NCBI RefSeq assembly: GCF_001011155.1
Contig: NZ_CP011479.1
Coordinates: forward strand, 1,320,501 to 1,384,500
Reading direction: 5' to 3'
Source: Hoeflea sp. IMCC20628
GTDB lineage: Bacteria > Pseudomonadota > Alphaproteobacteria > Rhizobiales > Rhizobiaceae
Length of the DNA stretch: 64,000 nt
A model generated the notes under the pieces. The model was not told the origin of the DNA. It saw only the letters and a program-made list of their open reading frames with translations, and did not search any database. The position numbers and the translations under genes are program-made. Every line of letters starts with the position of its first letter. The stretch's first letter is position 1. Below, one piece after another: positions 51,048 to 57,003 of the stretch.

Positions 51048-51344
51048 ATGAACAAGATCATCATCGCACTCGGCCTTACACTCGCAGCATCCACCGGCGC
51101 TTTCGCCGACTCCACAGCACTTGACGCCTACGATGTGCCTGCCGCACAGGGCTCCGCAACATACGCTGTTGGCGTTTCCAACGACCTGGTCAGCTACGAC
51201 CGCACCGGCAATGACGGTTCGCCGTCCTTCCAGGCACCGCAGGGTGACGTTGACTACACGGCGACTGCTTCGGTCGGCGACGTGTCCAATGACAAGGTCA
51301 CCTATGACCGCGCCGGCAACGATGGTTCGCCGCGCTTCCAGTAA
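51048..51344 (+). CDS. Tandem secreted repeat protein, copy 1
   Basis: The 98-residue protein has a 20-residue signal peptide ending in STGAFA, leaving a 78-residue acidic, Cys-free mature part. Two copies of a motif are visible: SNDLVSYDRTGNDGSPSFQ (44-62) and SNDKVTYDRAGNDGSPRFQ (80-98), joined by APQGDVDYTATASVG. I do not recognise a family. Two near-copies follow at 51451 and 51859. It differs from copy 3 at about nine positions. Small folded or partly disordered periplasmic or extracellular protein is the best guess. Confidence 0.82.
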   Translation: MNKIIIALGLTLAASTGAFADSTALDAYDVPAAQGSATYAVGVSNDLVSYDRTGNDGSPSFQAPQGDVDYTATASVGDVSNDKVTYDRAGNDGSPRFQ

Positions 51345-51356
51345 GCCGCTCCCGCA

Positions 51357-51382
51357 GGTGGCGGAGCCAATGCTCCGCCGCC
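51357..51382 (+). terminator. Hairpin between tandem copies 1 and 2
   Basis: GCGGAGC (51361-51367) and GCTCCGC (51372-51378) pair around CAAT, and the stem extends to about 11 bp (51357-51367 with 51372-51382). The same hairpin follows copy 2. There is no U-run, so it may stabilise the 3' end of each transcript or attenuate. Confidence 0.55.
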
Positions 51383-51450
51383 GCTGAGCCGGAAATCAAA
51401 ACAACAGGTTGTCCTCCCAAGACACGACCCGAATTCAAAGGAATATCATC

Positions 51451-51747
51451 ATGAACAAGCTCATTATCGCACTCGGCCTCACTCTCGCAGCATCCACCGG
51501 CGCCTTCGCCGACTCCACAGCAATGGACGCCTACGACGTGCCTGCCGCACAGGGCTCAGCCCCATATGCTGTTGGCACTTCCAACGATCTGGTCAGCTAC
51601 GAGCGCGCCGGCAATGACGGTTCGCCGACATTCCAGGCACCGCAGGGTGGCGTTGATTACACCGCAACCGCTTCGGTCGGTGACGTGTCCAACGACCAGG
51701 TCGTCTATGACCGCGCCGGCAACGATGGTTCGCCGCGCTTCCAGTAA
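51451..51747 (+). CDS. Tandem secreted repeat protein, copy 2
   Basis: This 98-residue paralogue has the same signal peptide and the same two 19-residue motifs (SNDLVSYERAGNDGSPTFQ at 44-62, SNDQVVYDRAGNDGSPRFQ at 80-98). It differs from copy 3 at only five residues, so the duplication is recent or kept uniform by gene conversion. AAAGGAATA precedes the ATG. It is 403 bases after copy 1 and 408 before copy 3. Confidence 0.82.
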   Translation: MNKLIIALGLTLAASTGAFADSTAMDAYDVPAAQGSAPYAVGTSNDLVSYERAGNDGSPTFQAPQGGVDYTATASVGDVSNDQVVYDRAGNDGSPRFQ

Positions 51748-51759
51748 GCCGTTCTCGCA

Positions 51760-51785
51760 GGTGGCGGAGCCAATGCTCCGTCACC
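51760..51785 (+). terminator. Hairpin between tandem copies 2 and 3
   Basis: An 11-bp stem (51760-51770 with 51775-51785, one G-T wobble) encloses CAAT and matches the hairpin after copy 1. It belongs to the repeated ~408-bp unit, not to a one-off terminator. Confidence 0.55.
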
Positions 51786-51858
51786 GTTGAGCCGGAACCT
51801 AAATAAAATCAATGTGTTGTCCTCCCAAGACACGACCCGAATTCAAAGGAATATTATC

Positions 51859-52155
51859 ATGAACAAGCTCATCATCGCCCTCGGCCTGACCCTCGCAGCA
51901 TCCACCGGCGCCTTCGCCGACTCCATAGCAATGGACGCTTACGACGTGCCTGCCGCACAGGGCTCGGCCACGTATGCAATTGGCACTTCCAACGATCTGG
52001 TCAGCTATGACCGCGCCGGCAACGACGGTTCGCCGTCCTTCCAGGCACCGCAGGGTGGCGTTGACTACACCGCAACCGCTTCGGTCGGTGACGTGTCCAA
52101 CGACCAGGTCGTCTATGACCGCGCCGGTAACGATGGTTCGCCGCGCTTCCAGTAA
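51859..52155 (+). CDS. Tandem secreted repeat protein, copy 3
   Basis: The third 98-residue copy again ends in GSPRFQ and carries both 19-residue motifs. Its leader sequence (TTCAAAGGAATATTATC) nearly repeats that of copy 2, and the shared 5' block (CCTCCCAAGACACGACCCG) is present before both. A strong terminator follows at 52181. The gene set may therefore be one transcript or three. Confidence 0.82.
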   Translation: MNKLIIALGLTLAASTGAFADSIAMDAYDVPAAQGSATYAIGTSNDLVSYDRAGNDGSPSFQAPQGGVDYTATASVGDVSNDQVVYDRAGNDGSPRFQ

Positions 52156-52180
52156 GCACAGTCACATCGTGCAGACACAG

Positions 52181-52217
52181 CGGGGCATCAGGTCTGACCT
52201 GAGTGCCCCGTTTCTGT
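52181..52217 (+). terminator. Terminator after the tandem secreted-protein genes
   Basis: A GC-rich stem starting GGGGCATCAGGT and closing ACCTGAGTGCCCC, with a 3-base loop and one small internal mismatch, is followed by GTTTCTGTCT. It lies 26 bases after the stop of copy 3 and should end the tandem-gene transcript. Confidence 0.75.
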
Positions 52218-52296
52218 CTGAATATTCTGACATCGGTTACGTCATCATCAATGGGCGGGCCGCAATGCAACACTTACCGGGAACGAAAGGACTATC

Positions 52297-52893
52297 ATGA
52301 CCAAGTTCAATACCGCCTTTCTGCCTGCCGCTCTTGCGACCCTGATGCTGTCGGCGACATCTGTTCCTGTATCCGCCGCAAGTTGGTTGAGGCTTGGCAC
52401 CTTTACCAGCCGTCCCTATGGTCACGTCGATTATTGTGCCCGGCATATTCGCGATTGCGGCGTGCGGATGAAACACACCGCCTTGCCGCCGGCCAGGCTG
52501 GCCGTGCTCGAACAGATCAACAGGGCGGTCAATCTGGCCATCACGCCTGTGACCGACGAAGAGCAGTATGGCCGCTACGAAGTGTGGAACGTGAATGCCA
52601 AGGCCGGTGACTGCGAAGACTATGCTCTCGAAAAACGGGCACAGTTGATGCGCAAGGGATTTCATCCCGAAAACCTGCTGCTGGCCATGACCCATACCGG
52701 AACAGAGTTCCACACTGTGTTGGTGGTGCGGACAAGAGTGGGTGATTTCGTGCTCGACAACCTCACCGAGGAAGTTTTGCCGGTGTCGGCGAGCCGGCTC
52801 GATTTCATCAAGGTTCAGTCACCCGATCATGGTGGCAACTGGCTCAAGGTGACCGGGAAAACCAGCGCGGCGCCCAAAGCTTCCACAAGTTAG
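52297..52893 (+). CDS. Transglutaminase-like cysteine protease (C93/BTLCP family)
   Basis: The 198-residue protein has a signal peptide ending in VPVSAA, so it acts in the periplasm. Cys, His and Asp of the triad are visible in GDCEDYALEKRAQ, EFHTVLVVRT and VLDNLTEEV. The family includes LapG, which cuts an adhesin at the outer membrane to release biofilm, but most rhizobial members have no known target. It lies after the tandem secreted proteins, with its own start, and convergent with eptA. Confidence 0.88.
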   Translation: MTKFNTAFLPAALATLMLSATSVPVSAASWLRLGTFTSRPYGHVDYCARHIRDCGVRMKHTALPPARLAVLEQINRAVNLAITPVTDEEQYGRYEVWNVNAKAGDCEDYALEKRAQLMRKGFHPENLLLAMTHTGTEFHTVLVVRTRVGDFVLDNLTEEVLPVSASRLDFIKVQSPDHGGNWLKVTGKTSAAPKASTS

Positions 52894-52921: not shown

Positions 52922-54583
52922 TCATGGCTGGCGCCGGGAAGCGGACTGCAACTCGGCCTTGGGCGGCTTCGATGCCGCCCGACATTGAGCCGTGAGGTCA
53001 AGCGCCGGATCGTAATGCGCGGCTTCCACGCCCATCAAACCCAGAACCGTGTGAAACAGATTGTCCTGCGACACCGGATCATCCGCGTGGGTGGCGAGGC
53101 AAGCGGTGGTGCTGCCGAAAATATTGGAATGACTGTCCGACTCCCACATCAGGAACGGTATATGGGTCTGTTCCTGGGGTGCGAAGAGGTAAGGCATGCC
53201 GTGCAGGTAGAGACCCTTTTCGCCCAGCGATTCGCCATGGTCCGACATGTAGATCATCGCGGAGGCAATACGGTCTGAACGGGCTTCCAGCATGTCGATG
53301 ACCTGGGCCAGCATATGGTCGACGGCGACAATGGTGTTGTCATAGGCGTTGGTGATTTCCTCACTGGTGCAGTCGGCGAATTCGGCGGTCTGGCAATCCG
53401 GCCGGAACAGCCGTTCCTCCTCCGAATAGCGGGCATAATAGGCTGGGCCGTGGCTTCCCAACTGATGCAGGACAAGGGTCGCATTGCCCTTGATCGAATC
53501 GAGCCAGGGTCCAAGCGCGTCGATCATGACCTGGTCGTGGCACTCGGTGTTGACACAAAAACGTGGGTCGTTTTCTGTTGAGAAATCCCGCTTCGAAATG
53601 CGTGTAGCCACTTCCTTGTCGCCAGTGTTGTTTTCCCACCATTCGACCGTCACGCCGGCGTGGGCGAGTACGTCCATCAGGTTTTCCTGGGCAAGTCCCT
53701 TGTCGCTCGAGTATTCGTCACGGCCATAAAGTGAGAACATGCAGGGAAGAGAGACCTCTGTCGCGGTTCCGCAGGACGAGGCGTTGCGAAAATAGACGAT
53801 GTCACGTTTCTCAAGCTGAGGATTGGTTTTCCGCTCGTAGCCGTTGAGGGAGAAGTTCTGGGCACGGGAGGTTTCGCCTGCGACAATGATGGTCACCACT
53901 GGTTTGTCGGCATGGGCCAGTTGCACTCCCGGGTTGGCGTCCGGGTCGAGGGGGGCTGCGACTATGTTTTTCTCTTTTCCCTGACGAATATAGTATTTCG
54001 CCACGCTCACCATCGGCATGACCGGGTTGAGCTTCTTGATGATGATACGGTTGTTGCGCATGGTCGACGCAATGGTCGGGTACTGCCAGAACGACAGGAT
54101 CAGGGCGATAAGCAGCAGCGGTACGATCAGTTTCAGGTTCGCCACCAGCTTGGAACCAAAAGTCAGATGCCGGATGCGCACCACCGCAACCAGCCCTGAA
54201 GGCAGCAGGGCGTAGATGAACATGTGGCGAAAGAACGCCGGTGTCATCAGATGTCCGGCCTCTGCGGGGGTTGTGTGAACAGCGTTGCGGATCATGTCGG
54301 TGTCTATGATGACGCCGAACTTTTGCATGAACCAGGAAGACGCGGCGGCGCTGACAATGGCCAGGATGAATATCGGCTTGGTGATGTATTTCACCGACAC
54401 GCTCAGAAACAGCGCGGCCAGCAGCGCGGACATGCCGACGCAGAAAGCAACAAGTCCTTCGCGATGATCGCCAAAAGCCGTGAATATATCGGTCCAGAAG
54501 GCCGTATTGACGACGAAGATGATCCAGGCTGCGACGAGGAGACTCAAGGTGACGCTGCCGAAGACGGGTCGGTGAAAGTTCAT
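52922..54583 (-). CDS. eptA: Lipid A phosphoethanolamine transferase EptA
   Basis: EptA adds phosphoethanolamine to lipid A at the periplasmic face of the inner membrane, lowering surface charge and helping resist cationic peptides. The 553-residue protein has five N-terminal spans (~10-170) and a C-terminal alkaline-phosphatase fold with metal and nucleophile regions (IIVAGETSRAQNFSLNGYER, then CGTATEVSLPCMFS and SDHGESLGEKGLYLHGMPY). ATG 54583 is preceded by AGGAAT; the frame is open further upstream. It lies 55 bp after the histidine kinase, as the last gene of PepSY-RR-HK-eptA. Confidence 0.93.
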   Translation of the reverse strand: MNFHRPVFGSVTLSLLVAAWIIFVVNTAFWTDIFTAFGDHREGLVAFCVGMSALLAALFLSVSVKYITKPIFILAIVSAAASSWFMQKFGVIIDTDMIRNAVHTTPAEAGHLMTPAFFRHMFIYALLPSGLVAVVRIRHLTFGSKLVANLKLIVPLLLIALILSFWQYPTIASTMRNNRIIIKKLNPVMPMVSVAKYYIRQGKEKNIVAAPLDPDANPGVQLAHADKPVVTIIVAGETSRAQNFSLNGYERKTNPQLEKRDIVYFRNASSCGTATEVSLPCMFSLYGRDEYSSDKGLAQENLMDVLAHAGVTVEWWENNTGDKEVATRISKRDFSTENDPRFCVNTECHDQVMIDALGPWLDSIKGNATLVLHQLGSHGPAYYARYSEEERLFRPDCQTAEFADCTSEEITNAYDNTIVAVDHMLAQVIDMLEARSDRIASAMIYMSDHGESLGEKGLYLHGMPYLFAPQEQTHIPFLMWESDSHSNIFGSTTACLATHADDPVSQDNLFHTVLGLMGVEAAHYDPALDLTAQCRAASKPPKAELQSASRRQP

Positions 54584-54638
54584 AAAGGATATTCCTGACA
54601 ATATTTTTGGTTCTGGTTGGTCTTGGCTCTGTCGGAAG

Positions 54639-56009
54639 TCAGGACGGAGGGTGGATAAGGGGGATGGAGACACGTGCTTCCAGTCCTCCAAGCGCTGAAC
54701 TGCGCAATTCAAGCTGTCCGCCGAAGGATTCAACGATGTCACTGGAGATCGCCAGGCCAAGTCCGGCACCCAATGCCGATTGGTCCAGCCTCTGGTCCGG
54801 TTTCATCGCGCTGGCGATGCGGGCCGGATCCAGGCCGGGACCGTCATCGCCAATGCGGATGATGAGGGCGGTGGAAGATGTCTCAGTGTCCACCAGCACC
54901 CGGCTGCGGGCGAAACGAACTGCGTTTTCCGCGAGATTGCCTATGAGTTCATTGAGGTCATCGGGATCGACGGGGACGGTCGCCCTGGCGTCGACGCTAC
55001 ATTGCAGGTCCAGCTCTTCACCGGCCGGTGTGCGCTTGAGCGTCCGCAGAATGCCGTCGACAACCGGCTTGAGCGGCGTCTTGTCGTGGCTGCGGCCGTG
55101 GCGCAGCCGGGCGCGGGCAAGTTCGCGCTGCATATGCCGGCTCATACGCTGGGCGAGTTCGGCGATGTCATCGGCGATTTCGGTTTCACCCTTGGCGCGA
55201 AGCCGCTCGATATCGGTTTCCAGCGCCGATAGCGGTGTTTTCAGACCGTGGGCAAGATTGGCGGCCCGGTCCCGCGCCCGGCTGATTGCGGCATCCTGAG
55301 CGTCCAGCAGGGCATTGACCTCCTCGACCAGCGGCGAGACTTCGCGCGGAACGCCATCGGATTCAAGTCGCTTGCGGTCACCGGACCGAATGGCGCTGAT
55401 CCCGGACAGAACGCGATAGACAGGCTTCAGGCCTTCGCCGATCTGCAGCAGAAAGCCGAGCAGCAGAACCACGCCGAGGATCGCCAGAACCGGGGCAAGG
55501 TCTCTTGCAAAACCGCTGGCCAACGCGCTGATCTCGGCCCTGTCGATGGCCACCGATACCCGCAATTTGTGATCGCCATCCGGAGCTGAAAGCAGCACCA
55601 TTGATTCATGAACCAACAGTTGTGAAGCCTCGGGGCCGGTGACGTCGTGAACATGGGTCTCCCCCGGCTGCAACACGTCGCCGGGAATATCGAGAAACGT
55701 ATCCCACAAGGACCTCGACCGTAGTTGCGAGCCAGCCGTGACATCGTCAACCTGCCAATACAAACCACCAAAAATGGACTGGAACCTGGGATCAACCGGC
55801 TCGCGAGCCAGCGACAGAGCCGAACCGGCATCGAGCCGCAAACCACCGGTGAGCTGGGTCAGGTGGGTGTCGAGTTCCTGGCCGACGCGGCGCTCGAGAT
55901 GGCGGGCAAACAGAGCCGACAAGCTGAATCCGGTGACCAGCAGTGCCGCAGCGACAACGATGACAGCATAGGCAAAAAGCCTGAATCGCAGGGAGCGGGC
56001 AGGTTTCAT
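54639..56009 (-). CDS. Sensor histidine kinase of the PmrB/PhoQ type
   Basis: The 456-residue protein has an N-terminal span (FAYAVIVVAAALLVTGFSLS), a periplasmic sensor (~40-165), a second span (DLAPVLAILGVVLLLGFLL), HAMP-like linker, the phosphoacceptor NLAHGLKTPLSALETDIE and an ATPase domain (NLAENAVRFARSR, DDGPGLDPARI). It is transcribed with the response regulator (4-bp overlap) and ahead of eptA. It probably senses envelope or cation stress; the ligand is unknown. Confidence 0.9.
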   Translation of the reverse strand: MKPARSLRFRLFAYAVIVVAAALLVTGFSLSALFARHLERRVGQELDTHLTQLTGGLRLDAGSALSLAREPVDPRFQSIFGGLYWQVDDVTAGSQLRSRSLWDTFLDIPGDVLQPGETHVHDVTGPEASQLLVHESMVLLSAPDGDHKLRVSVAIDRAEISALASGFARDLAPVLAILGVVLLLGFLLQIGEGLKPVYRVLSGISAIRSGDRKRLESDGVPREVSPLVEEVNALLDAQDAAISRARDRAANLAHGLKTPLSALETDIERLRAKGETEIADDIAELAQRMSRHMQRELARARLRHGRSHDKTPLKPVVDGILRTLKRTPAGEELDLQCSVDARATVPVDPDDLNELIGNLAENAVRFARSRVLVDTETSSTALIIRIGDDGPGLDPARIASAMKPDQRLDQSALGAGLGLAISSDIVESFGGQLELRSSALGGLEARVSIPLIHPPS

Positions 56010-56677
56010 GACGCCTCGACAGGCACGTCGACGATATAGCCGAAACCACGCCGCGTTTCGATGAGGGTGGACGGCAACTTGCGCCGCACACGTCCGACCA
56101 GCACTTCAATGGCGTTGGATTCGCGCTCGAAGTGGACTGACTGCAAATGTTCGGACAGTTCCTGTTGGCTCACCACACGTCCCTTGTTGAGCATCAGATA
56201 GGCAACCAGGCGATATTCCTGAGGCGATAGATTGACCGGGACGCCACGGACGCTGAGCCGCATTTGCCGTGTGTCGAGTTCTGCCTCGCCGACGATGACC
56301 ACCGGGTTGGCCTGTCCGCCGGAGCGGCGGATGATGGCGCGCAACCGGGCAACCAGTTCTTCCATGCGAAAGGGTTTTGGCAGGTAATCATCGGCACCGG
56401 CATCGATCCCTTCGACCCGTTCGGTCCACGCGCCTCGGGCGGTCAGCACCAGAACAGGAAAGTCACGTCCGCCGGCGCGCCAGCGCTTGAGCACGCTCAA
56501 CCCGTCCATGCCGGGCAGGCCGAGATCGAGGATGGCGGCTGCATAGGTTTCTGTGTCGCCGAGGAACCAGGCCTCTTCGCCATTGGTTTCAGTGTCGACC
56601 ACATAGCCGGAAGCTTCCAGCGCACGGCTGACATCCTCCCGGATACGATCATCATCTTCGACAAGCAGAACGCGCAT
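56006..56677 (-). CDS. OmpR-family response regulator of the PmrA/QseB type
   Basis: The 223-residue regulator has the receiver acidic pair (LLVEDDDR), phospho-Asp (AILDLGLPGMDGL), Lys (DYLPKPFRMEELV) and an OmpR-type winged helix (LSPQEYRLVAYLMLNKGRVV). The ATG at 56677 has GAGGA upstream, five bases after the PepSY stop. The 11-bp direct repeat at 57028-57043 is a good target site. It should turn on eptA and perhaps the divergent PepSY-cytochrome b561 pair. Confidence 0.91.
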   Translation of the reverse strand: MRVLLVEDDDRIREDVSRALEASGYVVDTETNGEEAWFLGDTETYAAAILDLGLPGMDGLSVLKRWRAGGRDFPVLVLTARGAWTERVEGIDAGADDYLPKPFRMEELVARLRAIIRRSGGQANPVVIVGEAELDTRQMRLSVRGVPVNLSPQEYRLVAYLMLNKGRVVSQQELSEHLQSVHFERESNAIEVLVGRVRRKLPSTLIETRRGFGYIVDVPVEAS

Positions 56678-56682
56678 CAGGC

Positions 56683-57003
56683 TCAATCCTCGTCTTCAAG
56701 TCGGAGGATTTCCGCGGTGCGGGCATCGATTTCATACTCAAGACGGCGGCCTTCACTGTTGATGATATAGATCTCGTAAATCGGCATTTCCCGTGAGTAC
56801 TCGAATTCAATTTCGACAATCCGACCTTGAATTTTCCCTTTCACCTTTTCGAGTATTTCAGTCAATTTCATGACCTCGCCGCGCTTTATGGCGGCGTCGA
56901 GACTGGCGCGCTGATGATGGTCATCGTCATCATCCGCAGAGGCGGATGCAAACACAGGTTTGATGGCTGCGAACAGCAGCAGGAGAAAGCCATATCGGTT
57001 CAT
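56683..57003 (-). CDS. PepSY-domain periplasmic protein (operon with RR/HK/eptA)
   Basis: The 106-residue protein has a signal peptide (YGFLLLLFAAIKPVFASA), an acidic/His stretch (DDDDDHHQRA) that could bind metal, and a PepSY domain (LTEILEKVKGKIQGRIVEIE, then EYEIDARTAEILRLEDED). PepSY proteins are periplasmic and may inhibit peptidases or sense the envelope. It is the first gene of the two-component operon, ending five bases before the response regulator start. Confidence 0.85.
   Translation of the reverse strand: MNRYGFLLLLFAAIKPVFASASADDDDDHHQRASLDAAIKRGEVMKLTEILEKVKGKIQGRIVEIEFEYSREMPIYEIYIINSEGRRLEYEIDARTAEILRLEDED

Follow-up and report, generated by a model that had tools for sequence, protein, structure and literature searches.

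Three tandem copies of a small gene stand upstream of a gene for a C93 cysteine peptidase in the marine bacterium Hoeflea sp. IMCC20628, which raises the question of what the small proteins do and whether the protease acts on them. The locus lies in a stretch of 64,000 nucleotides, here called the window, and an earlier note, made from its sequence alone, had described the three genes and suggested that their products might be a target of the neighbouring protease. We compared the locus (Table 1) with related loci in other genomes.

Table 1. Features of the array and the adjacent protease gene, in window positions.
Feature	Position	Strand	Basis
Copy 1, 98-aa exported repeat protein	51048..51344	+	ORF list, family matches, sequence comparison
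Stable hairpin 3' of copy 1	51346..51392	+	z -4.46
Leader of copy 2, same in copy 3 (51816-51858)	51408..51450	+	sequence comparison
Copy 2, same protein as copy 1	51451..51747	+	ORF list, family matches, sequence comparison
Hairpin 3' of copy 2, related to copy 1 hairpin	51749..51795	+	z -5.26
Copy 3, same protein as copy 1	51859..52155	+	ORF list, family matches, sequence comparison
Different stable hairpin 3' of copy 3	52173..52219	+	z -4.73
C93 (BTLCP, LapG-fold) cysteine peptidase, signal-like N-terminus	52297..52893	+	PF06035 160.1 bits, cut-off 27

Each copy runs from ATG to TAA, and the ORF coordinates confirm the three frames of equal length, with start spacings of 403 and 408, that had been described. 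Every copy comprises a 20-residue signal-like N-terminus, assigned by pattern, followed by an acidic mature part of 78 residues (pI 4.05, charge about -8; 1, 0 and 0 lysines in the three mature copies). As reported, STGAFA occupies residues 15-20 and GSPRFQ terminates the protein in all three copies, and exactly five residues separate copy 2 from copy 3 (T23I, P38T, V41I, E51D and T60S; 18 bases). The 19-residue motif is indeed found at residues 44-62 and 80-98, but the consensus given for it fails in two of the six instances (YDRTGN in copy 1, YERAGN in copy 2). Likewise, there is a repeat within each gene, but its period is 108 bp, or 36 residues, and thus extends beyond the motif alone. Across 15 pairs formed from the window copies and their three counterparts in the sister genome G017, dN/dS was about 0.08-0.23, which marks constrained proteins rather than chance ORFs. 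The three 98-residue ORFs are under purifying selection.

The repetition of flanking DNA that the earlier note had claimed holds in part. A stable hairpin follows every copy, but copies 1 and 2 have similar hairpins and copy 3 a different one, and the leader is common to copies 2 and 3 only, with copy 1 having its own. A role of the hairpins as terminators is unsupported by a terminator scan, which reported no + strand site 3' of any copy. By a codon index whose reference was 12 ORFs of the ribosomal protein region, picked by position and not each verified, the copies rank above 49, 48 and 50 of the 51 window ORFs and the protease above 12; seven members from other clusters rank above 35-50. 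Codon use is only suggestive of abundant small proteins, because the ORFs are short and their composition is odd. On the far side of the protease, positions 52922-54769 on the - strand encode a phosphoethanolamine-transferase-like protein (EptA_B_N and Sulfatase), after which positions 54639-56686 resemble, by eye, a two-component pair.

The 36-residue repeat carries two motifs, motif A ([IV]DYTATAS[IV]) and motif B (YDRAGNDGSPxF). Among 42 Hoeflea members, hand-picked for alignment from the matches in the genus, conservation is highest in the signal peptide and in [IV]DYTATAS, and the remainder is variable; members at L066, L067 and L072 have little else in common with the family. The layout A-B-A-B is plain in the longer Hoeflea members and in those of the genera g99 and g58, with [IV]D[YF]TATASIG as A and YDRAGNDGSPxF or RLGDGSPVY as B. 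The first A of the window copies has degenerated to TYAVG, PYAVG and TYAIG, and copy 1, for example, carries after its signal-like residues 1-20 one intact A motif (VDYTATASVG) and two B motifs. The terminal Gln is not conserved across the family. Structure prediction with the 42 sequences as input gave a pLDDT of 49.8 and a pTM of 0.16. The small protein is thus predicted to be disordered. A structural or adhesive role, which the earlier note had also suggested, gained no support here and may or may not apply, but the predicted disorder argues against a folded adhesin domain.

The description of the protein as unrecognised stands: searches of Pfam, NCBIfam and the PDB found no match stronger than E 0.0028, whether with the window copies, with the alignments A1, A3 and A5 against Pfam, or with A1 and A3 against NCBIfam, and the PDB sequence search with A1 reached E 0.021 at best. 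The mature parts are alike between genera (A1-A5, probability 99, E 1e-18; A1-A3, 94, 1.9e-7; A5-A3, 94, 8.4e-8; reversed controls, E 0.04-0.24). Membership of DUF680 (PF05079) was considered and rejected, since the best family member in the host genome scores 15.5 bits against a cut-off of 24; the PF05079 search that was run on the host genome also found matches in 6 of 14 control genomes. At E <= 1, PF05079 matches 5 of 42, 4 of 15 and 2 of 16 members of three alignments (best E 0.0051, 0.0055 and 0.021). The small exported DUF680 proteins, which occur in Mesorhizobium and are represented here by those of g73, are similarly short, exported and tandem, carry VDxSxTAS[IV] at the place of motif A, and are reached by the full-length A3 profile, signal peptide included, at E 2.6e-8. 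They differ in that the Hoeflea members fall under the Pfam cut-off, that the match of DUF680 to the mature parts of A1, A5 and A3 is weak (hhalign probability 9.0, 2.4 and 13.9%; E 0.0037, 0.02 and 0.002; reversed controls, E 0.78, 0.57 and 0.49), and that no C93 neighbour was found at the two loci checked. At a separate locus, L111 (g47, G155), five tandem exported ORFs share a different ending, DYYxGxNRPN, and perhaps form another amplified family; one of them matches DUF680 at E 4.8e-5.

The window copies are 3 of 14 family matches in the host genome (G000), which lie in four clusters, one of them on a 123-kb contig. This contig (L022, G000:C3) is possibly a plasmid, and one of its members has an altered C-terminal end. 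Two arrays on C1, at 2.04 Mb (L020:4978-6325) and 3.58 Mb (L021:5420-6767), have 1,348 bp in common at 99% identity. As they lie about 1.5 Mb apart, copies appear to move or convert between clusters, and the shared block suggests cassette copying or gene conversion. Together with the 14 matches, it bears out the view of a recently amplified secreted family. In G003, array members at L056 (C1:4142000-4155000) recur as a near-identical second block, with close copies also at 0.53 Mb (L055). A family match (E <= 0.01) is present in 17 of 18 Hoeflea genomes; the one genome without arrays, G013, is also without the C93 clade described below. Ten named loci contain the family, nine labelled Hoeflea and one an alphaproteobacterial MAG. 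In an order-level sample of 297 genomes, the A1 profile found no strong match beyond the genus, and outside the host genome only four weak ones (best E 1.2e-4); a plasmid collection held no match to window copy 3 or to one g17 protein. A mobile element as the cause of the spread was looked for near the three other host clusters. The ten ORFs scanned there contained no transposase; six had Pfam matches (TRCF, an HflX-type GTPase, NnrS, dihydroxy-acid dehydratase, alpha-amylase and an efflux protein) and four had none.

In the protease, C106, H139 and D154 are invariant among 12 aligned C93 proteins, and we assume from context that they form a Cys-His-Asp triad. Its model has a mean pLDDT of 81.1, and its six closest matches in the PDB are all LapG entries (TM about 0.48, 22-24% identity); against the LapG equivalog NF045674 of NCBIfam it scores 33.2 bits, the cut-off being 320. 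A profile built from 12 window-type C93s was run against 297 genomes from the same family, presumably Rhizobiaceae, with a limit of E 1e-60. Matches scored 298-337 bits in g1, g14, g58 and g99, 276-285 bits for a second Hoeflea C93 (C93b), and 212-227 bits in g17 and g50. The C93b of the host genome (G000:C1:1389661-1390215, L215) belongs to the same clade and lies about 17 kb past the array, without adjacent small proteins. In a tree of 60 rows, the linked C93s group with C93b, apart from the remaining 32 rows (support 100/99), and this group of 28 stayed intact when 28 further C93 rows were added (SH-aLRT 100 against 60 rows).

This one clade adjoins tandem small exported proteins in six genera, with the arrays upstream of the protease in four and downstream in two. 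Motif-bearing exported ORFs lie upstream on the same strand in 12 of 14 window-type loci (G017 and G005 added beyond the profile search), a set that is partly circular because most of it was first found via the small proteins, as were most of the linked loci from which the C93 profile was made. Measured from the edge of the C93 match, the nearest ORF of these upstream arrays is 142-351 bp away. Of the remaining two loci, L205 shows a family fragment at the edge of a contig and L204 shows family pieces interrupted by N runs. Nine loci of g17 and g50 were found by C93 sequence alone, and seven of them have two or three exported ORFs directly downstream, at 392-472 bp, with VDYTAPASI-like and RFGDASP-like motifs; the Hoeflea profile missed these ORFs except for one match in G204 (E 0.009). 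In G220 the small-protein pair lies 3.9 kb downstream of C93, behind a large frame that is autotransporter-like by eye, and in G260 the C93 gene stands at a contig end while another contig starts with such an array. Linked partner frames are 69-106 aa long, apart from one of 158 aa in L058. A family match at E <= 1e-10 occurs in 11 of the 297 genomes, all of them among the 13 with a C93 match of at least 276 bits; the other two are G224, with a linked family match at 2e-5, and G188, which has N runs. By comparison, such ORFs were found at none of 64 control C93 loci (7 Hoeflea C93b, 31 distinct other Hoeflea C93s and 26 C93s of other genera), within stretches that mostly had flanks of 1.5 kb and in a few cases less.

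Within Hoeflea, an adjacent C93 is present in only 5 of 18 genomes (G000, G017, G005, G006 and G014). Arrays without one are the majority and include three of the four host-genome clusters; the second arrays of g17 and g50, those of g75, g92 and g96, and the DUF680 arrays of g73 also have no C93 neighbour. An array stands about 15-20 kb from C93b in G000, G017, G003, G006 and G014. In G011 and G015 the distance between arrays and C93s of similar Pfam score, which are not among the tree rows, is 18-21 kb, and in G016 and G007 C93 and array are far apart. Judging from these distances, the window locus may be the old home of the pair. The proposal that the small proteins are a target of the neighbouring C93 thus gains comparative support beyond proximity, but most arrays have no such neighbour.

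Motif A varies with the presence of the clade. With Ala or Pro at position 5 it is carried by 81 of the 87 members sampled in the six clade-bearing genera, as against 0 of 32 in six genera where the clade was not found, by a rule chosen after seeing the sequences and among related genomes and genera that are not independent. Left out of this count were L134, L135, L136 and L111, as weak matches with an unclear layout, and L261, which yielded no small ORF. Allowing any residue at positions 3-5, 22 of the 32 have it (in g75, g92, g73, g59 and g108). Gly does not occur at position 9 in any of the instances counted, which have I, V, T, F, L or N there. Absence of the clade was judged by the C93 profile at E 1e-60 and, for g75, g92, g96 and g73, by an extra C93 search and tree; those genera without the clade that were tested do have other C93s. 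The clearest case is g96. Its proteins (L254-L257) agree with those of g17 in the signal peptide and through ENPNVGTPxDLY and DGSAxxFGDxSP, but motif A is missing in all eight, and the C93s of this genus reach at most 174 bits.

The analysis thus shows signal-like N-termini, tandem amplification, selection, clade-specific linkage, co-variation of motif A with the clade and predicted disorder, whereas the abundance of the small proteins (from codon use only), their cutting, its site and its purpose are inferred. The reading that we tentatively prefer, though with less than even confidence, is that they are an abundant exported substrate of a dedicated LapG-like C93 protease, cut at motif A. On this view the three genes would encode a repeat protein that is exported and acidic, is probably disordered, is produced in large amounts and is functionally coupled to the co-encoded cysteine protease. 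Cutting would take place at motif A, [IV]D[YFH]T[AP][TP]A-[SA][IV], a sequence similar to the LapG site, [T/A/P]A-AG with an Asp-containing motif before it: an Asp is followed four residues on by [TP]-A-[SAT], in a chain predicted to be disordered, as a substrate would be. With the two motifs alternating along the chain, each B motif would be freed by cutting as part of a peptide, either in the periplasm or outside. In a stronger version, which we regard as improbable, the proteins are polyprotein precursors in which C93 cuts each A motif and frees RxGxDGSP peptides of about 20-25 residues as extracellular signals or antagonists, tandem duplication and gene conversion having diversified the copies while their leader stayed constant.

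The many arrays without an adjacent C93, in most Hoeflea genomes and in g75, g92, g96 and g73, would also be expected if the small proteins had an independent role as abundant components of the envelope or matrix, such as stress buffering or a surface coat, and only in some genera did C93 touch them or the surface that they share. Codon bias and the acidic mature part (pI 4.05) are compatible with such a role, which we hold to be somewhat unlikely given the clade-specific adjacency in two gene orders and the lack of motif A in g96, where the clade was not found. Alternatively, linkage might reflect inherited gene order and sampling without any functional tie; only six genera are involved, loci within a genus share descent, and most Hoeflea arrays are unlinked. 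Against this slim chance stand the two gene orders, the empty control loci, the co-variation of the motif and the G220 pair, which was kept near C93 across an insertion.

Two further accounts keep the tie to the protease and change its nature. Calpastatin is a disordered repeat inhibitor of calpain, and by analogy the small proteins could be disordered repeat inhibitors or regulators that bind the active site via motif A and are not consumed. The same linkage and motif co-variation, the disorder and internal repeats, and a codon use consistent with excess over the enzyme would all suit this; since the [TP]A[SA] composition resembles a cut site, the copies have spread far beyond the protease locus and binding is putative, we think it unlikely. 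Cross-linking of the small proteins into a surface layer by C93 as a transamidase or deamidase, a chemistry proposed for the BTLCP domain in the portion of PMC4241560 consulted, might draw on the GSPRFQ ends of the window copies. It seems very improbable to us, as the terminal Gln is not conserved, the mature copies are nearly or wholly devoid of Lys, and LapG and DvhG are proteases according to the sections used of PMC13090378.

Taken together, the recurrence of the array-protease pairing in some relatives suggests that the small proteins are what C93 acts on, as in the substrate reading. A C93 clade defined by sequence is now paired with a partner family defined in the same way and with a predicted cut motif, and a family of small exported proteins that went unrecognised by Pfam-A and NCBIfam now has a motif pair. 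Since there are also natural genomes without the clade and the full motif, the substrate question comes down to a simple in vitro assay. Among the papers listed for DUF680, Hoeflea secreted proteins, C93/BTLCP/LapG and S. meliloti, none has a title or abstract opening that describes the pairing.

The portion consulted of one account presents BTLCPs (C93) as poorly characterised, widespread in alphaproteobacteria and probably directed at periplasmic or extracytoplasmic targets (PMC4241560). HvyA and other alphaproteobacterial BTLCPs are, like the window protease, exported members of this peptidase family; HvyA differs in belonging to a capsule export locus, with no small repeat partner described in that portion (PMC4241560). 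In the sections used of a second source, LapG cuts between the two Ala of [T/A/P]AAG, after a conserved Asp-Pro (PMC13090378). The present system differs from LapG-LapA in that motif A has no Gly after A-A/S, the protease scores below the NCBIfam LapG cut-off, and the partner is short, disordered and tandem, whereas LapA is a giant adhesin. Like LapG, the protease is an exported LapG-fold protein with invariant Cys, His and Asp, and its gene adjoins one for an exported protein in which an Asp is followed by [T/P]-A-[A/S].
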